39,464 nt of DNA from a virus: positions 1 to 39,464 of the IMG/VR virus record IMGVR_UViG_3300042691_032303. The stretch is one strand, 5' to 3'. The notes beneath the pieces are model-generated. The model was given only the letters and a program-made list of their open reading frames with translations. It had not been told where the DNA came from and searched no databases. A program made the position numbers and the translations under genes. Shown here piece by piece: positions 22,482 through 28,558 of the stretch (positions within the stretch are counted from its first letter, which is position 1; the number at the start of each line of letters is the position of its first letter).

Positions 22482-23174
22482 ATGTCTTTACCAAAATTAG
22501 AAACACCAATATATGAATTGACGTTACCTTCAACAGGTGAAAAGAAACAGTTTAGACCGTTTCTTGTTAAAGAGTATAAAATTTTATTGACAGCATTAGA
22601 ATCAGATGCTGAAGAAATTAGTAGAATAGTTACTGAATTAGTAGATGCTTGCACATTTAATAAACTGGATATAAACAGCCTTGCAAATTTTGATATTGAG
22701 TATATCTTTTTAAATATGAGGGCAAAATCCATTGGGGAAATTTCAAACCTAACCCTACAATGTAAAAATTGTGATAACAAAATACCAGTTCAAATGGATT
22801 TAACAAAAGCAACAATCCAAAAATCTGCAGAACATACATCTAAATTAAAGTTGACTGAAGAGATTATTTTAGAAATGCGATATCCGAAATTTGAAGAAAT
22901 GATTGATATCTATGAAAATTTTAAAACCGATAAGATTGTAAATCTACTAAGCGCCTGTATAAAATCGGTGTATACTAAAGACAAGTTATATGATGATTAT
23001 ACAGAAGAAGAATTGTTAGAATTTGTAAATTCTTTTTCAAAATCGCAGTTTGATATGATGGAAAGGTTCTTTCTAACCATGCCAAAATTAGTTCAACATA
23101 TAGAAAAAAATTGTGATATATGCGATACACATAATGAATTAAAAATAGAAGGTCTGCAAAATTTTTTCGTCTGA
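22482..23174 (+). CDS. 26: Baseplate hub assembly protein gp26 (tail assembly chaperone, zero-frame product)
   Basis: A member of the T4_baseplate (gp26) family: LPSTGEKKQFRPFLVKEYKILLTALES (about 15-42), FDIEYIFLNMRAKSIGE (about 67-83) and a paired-cysteine segment CKNCDN (about 90-95) with a second pair CDICD near the C-terminus (about 212-216). Together these look like a zinc-ribbon-like site. A GAGG Shine-Dalgarno lies about 8 nt before the ATG. The gene directly precedes the tape-measure-position gene, like lambda G and other tail assembly chaperones. Its last codons contain two overlapping -1 slippery heptamers, and the -1 frame continues into a conserved-looking extension. The normal product is 230 aa. 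Confidence 0.85.
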   Translation: MSLPKLETPIYELTLPSTGEKKQFRPFLVKEYKILLTALESDAEEISRIVTELVDACTFNKLDINSLANFDIEYIFLNMRAKSIGEISNLTLQCKNCDNKIPVQMDLTKATIQKSAEHTSKLKLTEEIILEMRYPKFEEMIDIYENFKTDKIVNLLSACIKSVYTKDKLYDDYTEEELLEFVNSFSKSQFDMMERFFLTMPKLVQHIEKNCDICDTHNELKIEGLQNFFV

Positions 23175-23362
23175 CCCTTTCCCATGAGGGGTTATACAAT
23201 TATTTTAAATTGAATTTTTCTTTAATGCATCACCATAAGTATTCATTAACAGAAATAGAAAATATGATGCCATGGGAAAGAGATACATACGTTGCTTTAC
23301 TTATAGCTAGTATAAATGAAGATAACGATAAAAGAAAACAAAAAAATCTAAGGAATAGTTAA
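23138..23362 (+). CDS. 51: gp51/GT-like extension in the -1 frame of gp26 (frameshift product)
   Basis: An open frame in phase -1 to gp26 runs from after a TGA at 23135-23137 to the TAA at 23360-23362. It includes LTLSHEGLYNYFKLNFSL, then KYSLTEIENMMPWERDTYVA and a basic end. This pattern resembles gp51-like or GT-type chaperone extensions. The only ATG (23225) lies after the first conserved-looking half and has no Shine-Dalgarno. Slipping at 23159-23168 would give a fusion of about 293 aa (229 from gp26, 64 from this frame). The stop overlaps the ATG of the next gene (TAATG), whose Shine-Dalgarno (AAGGA) lies within this frame. The frameshift is inference; the open frame and slippery sites are seen. 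Confidence 0.7.
   Translation: MKNRRSAKFFRLTLSHEGLYNYFKLNFSLMHHHKYSLTEIENMMPWERDTYVALLIASINEDNDKRKQKNLRNS
23159..23168 (+). promoter_or_regulatory. Candidate -1 programmed frameshift site (A AAT TTT / T TTT TTC)
   Basis: In gp26 codon phase the sequence reads CAA AAT TTT TTC GTC TGA. Both A-AAT-TTT and T-TTT-TTC fit the X-XXY-YYZ rule, and slipping on either puts the ribosome into the extension frame. Five bases later ACCC (23174-23177) can pair with GGGT (23189-23192), a weak possible stimulator. Confidence 0.65.
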
Positions 23363-25083
23363 TGTTACCTATTAACACTCAGGCACAAGCAAACAATGAT
23401 AAATTGATTTTAGACACCCTACAAAAACAGGGTGAAGAGCTTACTAGACAATCAAAGACTTTAGAAAAGCTTGTTAACGAATTATTCAAACAGACAAGAT
23501 CTAATGAAAAAGTTAGATCTAACGCAAAAGCTCAAGCTTCTACAGATGGTCAAGAACAAGGATTTTTTGAAAAACCTATGGCAGAGCTTATGAAAGATTT
23601 GCGTAGTATGTTTAAATTTGAATCTGGCGGCAAGGGCAATGGCAAGGAAATGTTTAAATTTGAATCCGGCGGAAAGAAAAAACAATCCAAAGGTTCAACC
23701 GAAGATACTTCGAACGAAAAAGGTAAAACAAAAGGTGAAGACCAAGAAATATTAAAAGATATACTTGATAAGTTTGTTCAAATGTCGGACTTTCAAAAGC
23801 AAATGACCGCACATACTGAAACTTTAAAAATGATATCTGATATAACCAAAACAAATATAGCTATAATGAAGGATGATTTTGCCTTTGTTAAAAAATCATA
23901 TGAGGATGGCGAAAGAGATAAAGACAGAGAATTACTTGCAGAACAAATCGCAGAAAAATTCGGAGTAGCTAAAGAATTAGAAGATAATCCAATTGACCCA
24001 AATAATAATGAACCTCAAGCAAAAGAAGATCAACAATCATTATCTAATAAAATGGGTAAAGCGGTAGCAGAAAATATATCAAAAGGATTTGGTACTTTAC
24101 TTACAACACAAGATTTTAAGACAGTTACAGAAAAACAAACAGATAGAGTAGTAGAAGCATTGCAAGAAATTAGTTCTGCAAGGGGCTTGGGCGGCAGCAA
24201 TGGCTTAGGCTTTGATATGGATTTACCGGATGGTAGAAGAAACAGTCGCGGTGTACCAGGAAACGGTTCAAGAAATCAACCTAAAGGTGGTCCTAAAGGG
24301 AAACCTGGGGGCAAGCCACCTACACCGAAAGGAAAAATACCGTTTGGTAAAATAGCATTGGGTGCTGTAGCTGGAGGAATACTTTTCGAAGGATTGACAT
24401 ATTCTGAAGAATTAAATAAAGAAGAAGAAGAAAAACTTCAACAATATAGAGAAGAAAATCCTGAGCAATTTAAAAATGATAAAGATATTTTAGATGATCC
24501 AACCTCAGATAAAGATGCAAAAAGAATTGCAGCTAAAAATATAAAAATGCAAGAGGATATTAAAAAATACGGAATAGATGAAGCAAAACGAAGAGCAGAA
24601 GCCAGAGATCGTATTGATGAAAGATTAAAACAGCGTAAAGATGAAAAACAAAAAGTTGAGTCTATAAAGAAAGAAAAATCAAATCAAGACAAAACAGGAA
24701 AACAATTAGATAAGCCAAAATTAAACATGGATGCAGGTCCTCAAGCCCCATTAGTAATTCCCGAGGATATGACTAACCTAAGCGATACTGGAAATATAAA
24801 CAACGATATTAGTAGTTTGGCACAAACAAATGCAGAAGACGTGAATTCATCGTTGACTCCCGTTGCAGCAAAAACACCAAAATTATTAGACATCGTCACC
24901 GAAGAAAAACAAGAAATGGCAGAAAGTAAAACCGTTACACCTGTAACCATAATAAACAACAATACAAATAATGTAGGTCAAGGTGGAGGTGGGCAGTCTA
25001 TGAATTTTGCTGCAGCAACCGCGGTAAATACTGACACATCAATAAATGACTTCTTTAGGTCGCATGGAAGAATATATGCATAA
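23362..25083 (+). CDS. 29: Probable tape-measure protein / baseplate hub subunit (gp29 position)
   Basis: The 573-aa length is close to T4 gp29 (590 aa), the tail length determinant. Seen: an N-terminal coiled coil (about 5-50, LQKQGEELTRQSKTLEKLVNE), long charged helical stretches, a Gly/Pro-rich hinge (about 280-325), one hydrophobic segment (about 326-350, FGKIALGAVAGGILFEGL), a very charged helix (about 355-450), and an Asn/Gly-rich C-terminus ending in NDFFRSHGRIYA. This is the composition of tape measures. It starts on the stop of the gp51-like frame, which fits translational coupling to its chaperones. The sequence itself is too divergent for me to recognise T4 gp29, so the call rests on position, length and composition. 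Confidence 0.65.
   Translation: MLPINTQAQANNDKLILDTLQKQGEELTRQSKTLEKLVNELFKQTRSNEKVRSNAKAQASTDGQEQGFFEKPMAELMKDLRSMFKFESGGKGNGKEMFKFESGGKKKQSKGSTEDTSNEKGKTKGEDQEILKDILDKFVQMSDFQKQMTAHTETLKMISDITKTNIAIMKDDFAFVKKSYEDGERDKDRELLAEQIAEKFGVAKELEDNPIDPNNNEPQAKEDQQSLSNKMGKAVAENISKGFGTLLTTQDFKTVTEKQTDRVVEALQEISSARGLGGSNGLGFDMDLPDGRRNSRGVPGNGSRNQPKGGPKGKPGGKPPTPKGKIPFGKIALGAVAGGILFEGLTYSEELNKEEEEKLQQYREENPEQFKNDKDILDDPTSDKDAKRIAAKNIKMQEDIKKYGIDEAKRRAEARDRIDERLKQRKDEKQKVESIKKEKSNQDKTGKQLDKPKLNMDAGPQAPLVIPEDMTNLSDTGNINNDISSLAQTNAEDVNSSLTPVAAKTPKLLDIVTEEKQEMAESKTVTPVTIINNNTNNVGQGGGGQSMNFAAATAVNTDTSINDFFRSHGRIYA
23608..23691 (+). repeat. 42-nt direct duplication in the tape-measure gene
   Basis: The 17-mer ATGTTTAAATTTGAATC occurs at 23608 and again at 23650, giving two copies of MFKFESGGK spaced by 14 residues. 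It is an in-frame tandem duplication with a few substitutions. Confidence 0.8.
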
Positions 25084-27098: not shown

Positions 27099-27364
27099 AG
27101 TGGTAATTTTCCTCTCTTTTTGAAGTAATTGCCTTCTTCTGCTTCTATCTGTACTCGTTCTTTTAAAGATTGATTTATTAATTTTGATATAGATTCAATA
27201 TCAATATCTACTTCTGAGCAATATTGTATAATTGCATCCATATAACCTATTTTTTCTCGTACAACTCGTTCCTCAATATAAAGAGAAAATTCATTAGGGG
27301 ATCTAAATTTCTTTGTTATTACTAAACTATCGGTTAAGACATACGGCTCTAATTCGTTATTCAT
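27095..27364 (-). CDS. 33: Late transcription coactivator gp33
   Basis: gp33 bridges RNA polymerase and the sliding clamp at late promoters. Seen: an 89-aa protein with FSLYIEERVVREKIGYMDAIIQYCSEVDIDIESISKLI in the centre, equivalent to the IEKMVEEFGMSYLEATTAFLEENSI part of T4 gp33. A hydrophobic C-terminal tail (KLPL) corresponds to the T4 clamp-binding end (DFLL). It lies directly upstream of gp59, as in T4. Its ATG overlaps the stop of the bilin reductase gene (ATGA). The presence of TATAAATA late promoters in the window supports the assignment. Confidence 0.8.
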   Translation of the reverse strand: MNNELEPYVLTDSLVITKKFRSPNEFSLYIEERVVREKIGYMDAIIQYCSEVDIDIESISKLINQSLKERVQIEAEEGNYFKKRGKLPL

Positions 27365-28035
27365 TTTTCTTCCGGGAAAAGAATCTCATCCATAAAATTC
27401 ATAAACACATTTTTATTTACCCCAATATTAACCATCATTGCTGGGGTGTGAGGATTCAATTTCTGATTCTTACAATATATGTTATGTTTATTCTTATAAT
27501 CTCTACCTGAGTAGACTACACCTATATTATATAAGTAATGATCTAAGTTGTCAATAACAGTGTTTGCCAATTGGTCGAATTCTTCTTGAGTTTGTATATT
27601 ACCTGCTGCTAGCATCTGAGGACTAAAAATTCGTTTAGCCCATTCTGGCAATTCTCTAGGTTTATTCCAAGAAATGTTTTCCATTTTATTTTGATACCAT
27701 TTATAAATGGGGGATTGATCTACATATGAAAAATCGTGAAAGGCCCCTGTAATTTTATTTTTCCCGCATACTATATCAAATCCAAATATTGGATCGGGTG
27801 AACTATAATGAGGAAATATGCACATATGCATAACCCACATCTTTTTATGCTTTGTGGCATCTACAATTTCTATATGTGCACGCCTAAATGCTGAGTCAGT
27901 CCATAGATAATTTTTCCATACAAAATCTGTAGTATGATGCTGGTATTTTTCGTCCGTTTCTACAACATCATATGTACCGAATTTAGAAATTATATTTTCA
28001 GCAAGTTTATTAGCCTGCGGCCAAATCTCAATCAT
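27361..28035 (-). CDS. pcyX: Ferredoxin-dependent bilin reductase, PcyX/PcyA-like
   Basis: A member of the FDBR family that reduces biliverdin with ferredoxin electrons. Seen: RRAHIEIV with E56, VMHMCIFPHYSSPDPIFGFDIV with H70 and D87, and TGAFHDFS. These correspond to Glu76, His88 and Asp105 of PcyA, residues that PebA/PebB-type enzymes do not all keep. Near the C-terminus the N-D-K-T of PcyA/PebS is N-P-H-T here (194-197), so the second Asp seems absent. The 224-aa length and pattern fit PcyX, known from uncultured marine viruses as a PcyA-like enzyme making phycoerythrobilin. The heme oxygenase gene overlaps it by 8 nt and gp33 by 4 nt. The exact product (PEB or PCB) is inference. Confidence 0.85.
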   Translation of the reverse strand: MIEIWPQANKLAENIISKFGTYDVVETDEKYQHHTTDFVWKNYLWTDSAFRRAHIEIVDATKHKKMWVMHMCIFPHYSSPDPIFGFDIVCGKNKITGAFHDFSYVDQSPIYKWYQNKMENISWNKPRELPEWAKRIFSPQMLAAGNIQTQEEFDQLANTVIDNLDHYLYNIGVVYSGRDYKNKHNIYCKNQKLNPHTPAMMVNIGVNKNVFMNFMDEILFPEEK

Positions 28036-28558
28036 TATAGACCTTTATCATATTAATATTATGATCAAAAGCAATATTCGCTTCTTTTGCAAGAGACACA
28101 TCAATTTTTTCTCTTATACCTTTTACCAGTGTTTGAATATTGTCAAACTTATAAAAATTATTACTACCTGGTAATAATTTAGCTAACATTTGTCCCCCAA
28201 ATAGATCGCCCATATGTCTAACATATACATGAGCCATTATCTTTTCAGGGGCATGCCTAATACTGTGAAGATAATTTATATAATTTTCGGTAGGTCTGTT
28301 TACCATATTACTAGGTCTGTCTCCTAATAATTCGATCCAATCCATTTCAATCTGCCTTGATCTTTTAATATCTTCAATACCTTCGAATAAGTTATGTGTA
28401 TCGGCATAAAATTCTAAGACTTGATATACATGAAGCAATTGAAACAAATAATCTGTATACTTAGGAACATCTACTTTACCTGCAAAAATAGATTTTAAAA
28501 ATGGTTGAGATTCTGCTTCTCGATGTTTATCCGCAGTTAATTCTTTTAATGACGACAT
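28028..28558 (-). CDS. ho1: Heme oxygenase
   Basis: Opens heme to biliverdin IX-alpha, CO and Fe2+ using ferredoxin electrons. Seen: the N-terminal LKELTADKHREAESQPF with H12 as proximal heme ligand, and the distal helix YVRHMGDLFGGQML (about 122-135) matching the G-D-L-x-GGQ motif of HO-1. At 176 aa it is shorter than cyanobacterial HO1 (about 240 aa), as typical for phage enzymes. It starts 1 nt after the 2OG oxygenase stop and overlaps the bilin reductase start, so the substrate-product pair is translated together. Confidence 0.92.
   Translation of the reverse strand: MSSLKELTADKHREAESQPFLKSIFAGKVDVPKYTDYLFQLLHVYQVLEFYADTHNLFEGIEDIKRSRQIEMDWIELLGDRPSNMVNRPTENYINYLHSIRHAPEKIMAHVYVRHMGDLFGGQMLAKLLPGSNNFYKFDNIQTLVKGIREKIDVSLAKEANIAFDHNINMIKVYND

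Follow-up and report, generated by a model that had tools for sequence, protein, structure and literature searches.

A conserved T-rich slippery site at the end of gene 26 very probably directs -1 frameshifting into a gp51-like tail chaperone extension in T4-like phages

The DNA analysed here, which we call the window, is the 39,464-nucleotide IMG/VR virus record IMGVR_UViG_3300042691_032303. Positions 22482..23174 (+) encode a 230-aa homologue of gp26, predicted from phrog_150, PF12322, hhalign and a fold match to be the short form of a tail assembly chaperone (TAC-N, lambda gpG-like). The gene ends CAA AAT TTT TTC GTC TGA, as a first-pass annotation made from the sequence had read it. Its frame-0 stop, the TGA at 23172..23174 (+), lies one codon past the slippery heptamer T_TTT_TTC (23162..23168, +), which places TTT in the P site and TTC in the A site, and a second X_XXY_YYZ heptamer, A_AAT_TTT (23159-23165), overlaps it. 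An open -1 frame spans 23138-23359 and ends with TAA at 23360-23362. Its portion from 23168 to 23362 (+; 64 codons and the TAA) encodes a predicted gp51 domain, a lambda T-like extension identified by phrog_634, hhalign and dN/dS. The first-pass annotation had proposed that the stop of this second frame overlaps the next ATG and that no canonical start codon reaches the frame. Both proposals proved right: the TAA overlaps the ATG at 23362 (TAATG), and the earliest possible starts, TTG 23209 and ATG 23227, are both inside the conserved domain.

The ATG at 23362 opens a 573-aa ORF (23362..25083, +) that we place at the tape-measure position by position and length only. A family search with this ORF gave no convincing match (a weak transglycosylase hit, E 5e-4), and comparison with the putative tape measure of HTVC008M gave no similarity. 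Elsewhere in the window, at 27361-28558 on the minus strand, a ferredoxin-dependent bilin reductase gene (PF05996, E 1e-18) adjoins a heme oxygenase gene (PF01126, E 1e-21), a pair whose sequence matches point to a cyanobacterial host.

Membership of the first gene in the gp26 family was clear from phrog_150 (E 7e-61) and from a full-length profile match to Pfam T4_baseplate PF12322 (E 3e-56). An AlphaFold2 model of gp26 (pLDDT 87.8) matched viral gp26 relatives, and its residues 1-93 had two clear matches among solved structures, set well apart from the others: 3fgx (Z 7.6), from Bacillus stearothermophilus and uncharacterised, and the HK97 tail assembly chaperone 2ob9 (Z 7.5). The 2ob9 match covered 83 residues within model residues 1-84 at an rmsd of 4.0, and the first unrelated match scored Z 2.8. 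The modelled N-terminal domain of gp26 thus appears to resemble the tail assembly chaperone fold, a likeness to be read with caution at a Z under 8. Foldseek alone found no significant match of the gp26 model in the PDB (E 2.1), and searching solved structures by sequence returned weak, chance-like matches only.

The -1 frame matched phrog_634 (baseplate hub assembly catalyst, gp51) from residue 6 onward (E 1e-27). A further match, to phrog_150 positions 229-276, suggests that the gp51 extension is part of certain phrog_150 proteins. In T4, genes 26 and 51 are separate and lie on opposite strands, in agreement with the first-pass view that T4 and its relatives make the two proteins from two genes. 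The gp26 family aligned to the very end of T4 gp26 (hhalign E 5e-21) and also matched T4 gp51 (E 1e-5), while the -1 frame domain matched the C-terminus of T4 gp51 (residues 200-244, hhalign E 4e-5). Since T4 gp51 matches both the gp26 family and the -1 domain, it is the long form, with N and C parts, and T4 gp26 the short one; on this homology, T4 retains the two-form logic through two genes. A separate long gp51 in addition to gp26 was found in T4, Moon, Aes012, CF1 and 44RR, and KPV15 had no annotated long gp51 within the stretch examined. In the record of Citrobacter phage Moon, T4 gp27/gp28-like genes are annotated as a GT-like frameshift fusion; by our analysis the chaperone homologues of this phage are gp26 and gp51.

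We compared this junction across relatives, an alignment that the first-pass annotation had named as a check. The set comprised 149 junctions, namely the window, 132 IMG/VR contigs (138 loci, retained where the junction was readable) and 16 named phages, which formed 61 clusters at 70% identity. Both the heptamer and the -1 frame were conserved. In every junction (149/149) the gp51-like frame lay at -1 relative to a gp26 read in frame 0, and none was fused in frame. Towards its 3' end, gp26 carried an in-phase T_TTT_TTN in 148 of the 149 junctions and in 60 of the 61 clusters. The named phages that carry it are P-SSM2, S-WAM1, S-CAM1, S-B68, HTVC008M, Mosig, phiM19, DLP6, ACP17, Milchi, S13, Aeh1, KVP40, 6E35-1b and RHph_N34; heptamer and -1 frame are kept across cyanophages, pelagiphages, rhizobial, Stenotrophomonas and Acidovorax phages and several Straboviridae. 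In 53 of 60 clusters the gp26 stop followed the A-site codon at a distance of 0-2 codons. At eight loci (L074, L088, L095, L111, L120, L122, L123 and L158) it lies about 8 codons beyond the heptamer, and both frames are translated across a short overlap. The first-pass annotation had described two overlapping slippery sites. Both are present in the window, but only T_TTT_TTN is conserved; A_AAT_TTT was found in 9 of 60 clusters, which rules it out as the main slip site.

A single heptamer means little by itself because in-phase X_XXY_YYZ sequences are frequent in the AT-rich window (~110 in 11,142 codons). In-phase T_TTT_TT is rare elsewhere in gp26 of the 61 clusters (10 of 14,479 codon positions). 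At the site itself, the codon for Phe228 was TTT in 60 of 60 clusters, whereas other conserved Phe columns of gp26 mix TTT and TTC (e.g., 29/25, 38/19 and 24/34). Residue 227 varies among Ser, Asn, Asp and Ala, and the third position of its codon was T without exception (60 clusters); the A-site codon, for residue 229, was TTC, TTT, TTA or TTG. Because residue 227 is variable yet its codon always ends in T, Phe228 is fixed as TTT and the A site is always TTN, it is the nucleotides and not the residues that are conserved. The joint synonymous probability of this pattern was ~1e-24 with clusters taken as independent, an optimistic figure since the clusters are related; synonymous sites between clusters are near saturation.

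Selection on the second frame was assessed in the window's clade (15 sequences). Over codons 0-15 past the heptamer, dN/dS was 0.09 for the -1 frame, whereas frame 0 gave 0.87 and frame +1 gave >2, and this segment was stop-free in the -1 frame only, frames 0 and +1 not being coding. Across the segments tested, stops were absent from the -1 frame in 46 of 46 clusters. Immediately after the heptamer, purifying selection in the window's clade therefore acts on the -1 frame only, and the beginning of this frame, which had been called conserved-looking, is under selection from its first codon past the heptamer. Because the selected segment begins at the heptamer, ahead of any start codon, the sole simple route into it is a change of frame, whether made during translation or already present in the mRNA.

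The best-surviving alternative is that gp51 is made as a separate small protein, by an independent start or by termination-reinitiation near the gp26 stop, with the T run being incidental. Many GenBank records do list gp51 as a gene of its own. In 15 of 60 clusters the -1 frame has an ATG or GTG close to the gp26 stop, and in KVP40, 6E35-1b and RHph_N34 an ATG overlaps that stop (TAATG or TGATG). A further case is a Vibrio lineage represented by phages D495, the sole one of the 149 junctions without the heptamer, and K369: here TAATG joins the gp26 stop to the ATG of the -1 frame, and both frames persist. The first-pass annotation had held that a normal start for the second frame, or loss of the heptamer with the frames kept separate, would refute a frameshift. 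Homologues of this kind occur in the D495/K369 lineage, which seems to have lost the frameshift; in the other junctions of the set the heptamer is conserved. Separate gp51 initiation is thus possible in some phages, but for the window it fails because there is no start codon. Indeed, codons 1-9 of the -1 frame hold no ATG, GTG or TTG in 45 of 60 clusters, so that the window and most of its relatives lack a start codon ahead of a domain that is selected from the codon right past the heptamer. The heptamer is retained even where an ATG is near (KVP40, 6E35-1b and RHph_N34 could produce the fusion as well as a separate gp51), and T4 gp51 combines the N and C parts in a single polypeptide. We therefore regard separate initiation as an improbable account of the locus. 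The records of S-WAM1, S-CAM1, Aeh1, ACP17 and S13 contain no annotated gene for the gp51 frame, and in that of HTVC008M gp51 is annotated from an internal ATG.

The surroundings of the heptamer contain two candidate stimulators. The first is a Shine-Dalgarno-like (SD-like) element, GAAGGT (23148..23153, +), 9 nt 5' of the heptamer. A GAR-GG sequence lies ~9 nt 5' of the heptamer in most lineages (GAG-GG in many relatives). Across 60 clusters, pairing with the anti-SD at the 16S 3' end peaked for 8-mers ending ~7-9 nt before the heptamer, with a mean of -6.7 kcal/mol at the peak and -2.0 kcal/mol over the rest of gp26 (p 4e-28). The Glu codon at this site was GAG in 25 of 38 cases, compared with 27% elsewhere. 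SD elements of this kind act as stimulators of -1 frameshifting at E. coli dnaX and, by estimate, at 56% of IS elements (PMC5009743). The second candidate is a hairpin that may be stimulatory, immediately 3' of the heptamer (23169..23197, +; up to -11.4 kcal/mol) and seen in folds of the window and its close relatives; many lineages are without it. RNA 3' of the heptamer was more folded than expected (mean z ~-1.4 at +6 and ~0 upstream; 60 clusters). A universal downstream stem-loop was rejected: RNAalifold found none across clusters, and a 5-bp stem was confined to the window's clade. SD strength and hairpin strength showed no trade-off (Spearman 0.06). Counting against a frameshift, the SD-like element of the window is weak (-4.5 kcal/mol) and the hairpin is patchy among relatives.

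Together, the evidence makes it very probable that programmed -1 ribosomal frameshifting at the end of gene 26 yields tail chaperones of 230 and 293 aa according to G/GT logic. The conservation of the heptamer and of the -1 frame, and the selection on the latter, support the first-pass proposal that such a shift joins gp26 to a gp51-like extension. The heptamer, the nucleotide-level constraint, the startless but selected -1 frame, the SD-like signal and the homology to T4 gp26 and gp51 are read from sequence; the slip, its rate and the chaperone roles are what we infer. Most ribosomes would terminate at the TGA at 23172 and release the 230-aa gp26 (TAC-N). Some ribosomes, holding Phe-tRNAs on TTT in the P site and TTC in the A site, would slip by -1 on T_TTT_TTC, aided by the upstream SD-like GARGG ~9 nt away and, in the window's lineage, by the downstream hairpin. 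Slipped ribosomes would then read the -1 frame to 23362 and produce a 293-aa gp26-gp51 fusion (TAC-NC), consisting of gp26 residues 1-229 followed by the -1 frame gp51 domain. The two sizes given in the first-pass annotation hold provided that both tRNAs slip at this heptamer. By analogy with lambda gpG and gpGT, the N part common to both products would coat the tape measure, whereas tail tube subunits would be recruited by the C extension.

A change of frame could also arise in the mRNA, if RNA polymerase slipped on the T run and added one U. Such transcriptional slippage would be consistent with a conserved homopolymer run and would make a nearly identical protein. However, the run is just 6 T in 53 of 60 clusters, compared with the 9 A or T of bacterial cases (PMC5009743), and its fixed codon phase and the SD-like element ~9 nt away suit a translational slip; we consider this explanation very unlikely, more so than separate initiation. 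A sequencing or assembly error that split one fused gene has practically no probability, since, error-prone as homopolymer runs are in general, the junction comparison ruled it out with a -1 relation in 149/149 and a T run in 148/149 junctions from many independent projects, phage isolate genomes included.

In T4 and its three Tevenvirinae relatives Moon, KPV15 and CF1, the residues GLKEFF are kept with the Phe-Phe pair written as TTC TTT, and no in-phase T_TTT_TT was found in gp26 of these four phages; in 44RR and Aes012 Phe-Phe is lost too. The contrast between these phages, of which T4, Moon and CF1 have a separate full-length gp51, and those with the heptamer counts in favour of frameshifting. 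We lean slightly towards a history in which T_TTT_TTN and an SD-like stimulator were ancestral in T4-like phages, Tevenvirinae moved to two genes and TTC TTT, one Vibrio lineage moved to a stop-start overlap, and recoding was thus lost at least twice by different routes.

The arrangement resembles lambda gpG/gpGT in its overlapping tail-region frames, in a -1 shift close to where the first frame ends and in short and long products with a common N part. The lambda heptamer is G_GGA_AAG. The present junction differs from lambda in its T_TTT_TTC site, in the common SD-like upstream element, in a larger gp26 with a second domain and in belonging to a contractile-tailed T4-like phage. T4 itself has proteins homologous to the window's gp26 and -1 domain, but encodes short and long forms in two opposite-strand genes with no slippery site. 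The E. coli dnaX cassette has the same elements in the same order (an SD-like element, a homopolymer heptamer and a downstream stem-loop); unlike the present site, it uses A_AAA_AAG, shifts at about 50% and yields a shorter product, whereas here the shift lengthens the protein. In lambda, gpG and gpGT are tail assembly chaperones made by a -1 shift (Levin 1993; Xu 2004; described in PMC5009743), with G acting on the tape measure and T recruiting tube subunits (PMC5009743). At the TAC locus of Vandenendeviridae and Andersonviridae (PMC12846349), TAC-N is likewise extended at -1 via a conserved T-rich site, although these are other families and their motif is GTTTTT rather than T_TTT_TTN.

Frameshifted T4-like chaperones have already been published, as two citing papers indicate. 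PRFect (PMC10885494) refers to Vladimirov, Gautam and Davidson 2022 (Virology 566:9-15) on T4-like phages whose short and long TAC forms are encoded by separate genes, and a 2025 paper (PMC12846349) credits that study with poly-T -1 signals in T4-like TAC-N genes. As described by these papers, the published systems share with ours the short and long TAC forms and the poly-T signals, and the window's phage is a further well-supported case. The SD-like element, the synonymous test, the TTC TTT recoding and the Vibrio loss are results of the present analysis, some or all of which Vladimirov 2022, known from the two citing papers, may have reported before.

T4-type phages, with their TTC TTT recoding, offer a natural control, and with it the role of the heptamer can readily be tested. 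Because the second frame has no start codon, its gp51 half is missing from the annotation of some public genomes, or is annotated from a position within the domain. Beyond the T4 subfamily, T4-like phages probably produce their tail chaperones through the ribosomal device that lambda uses.
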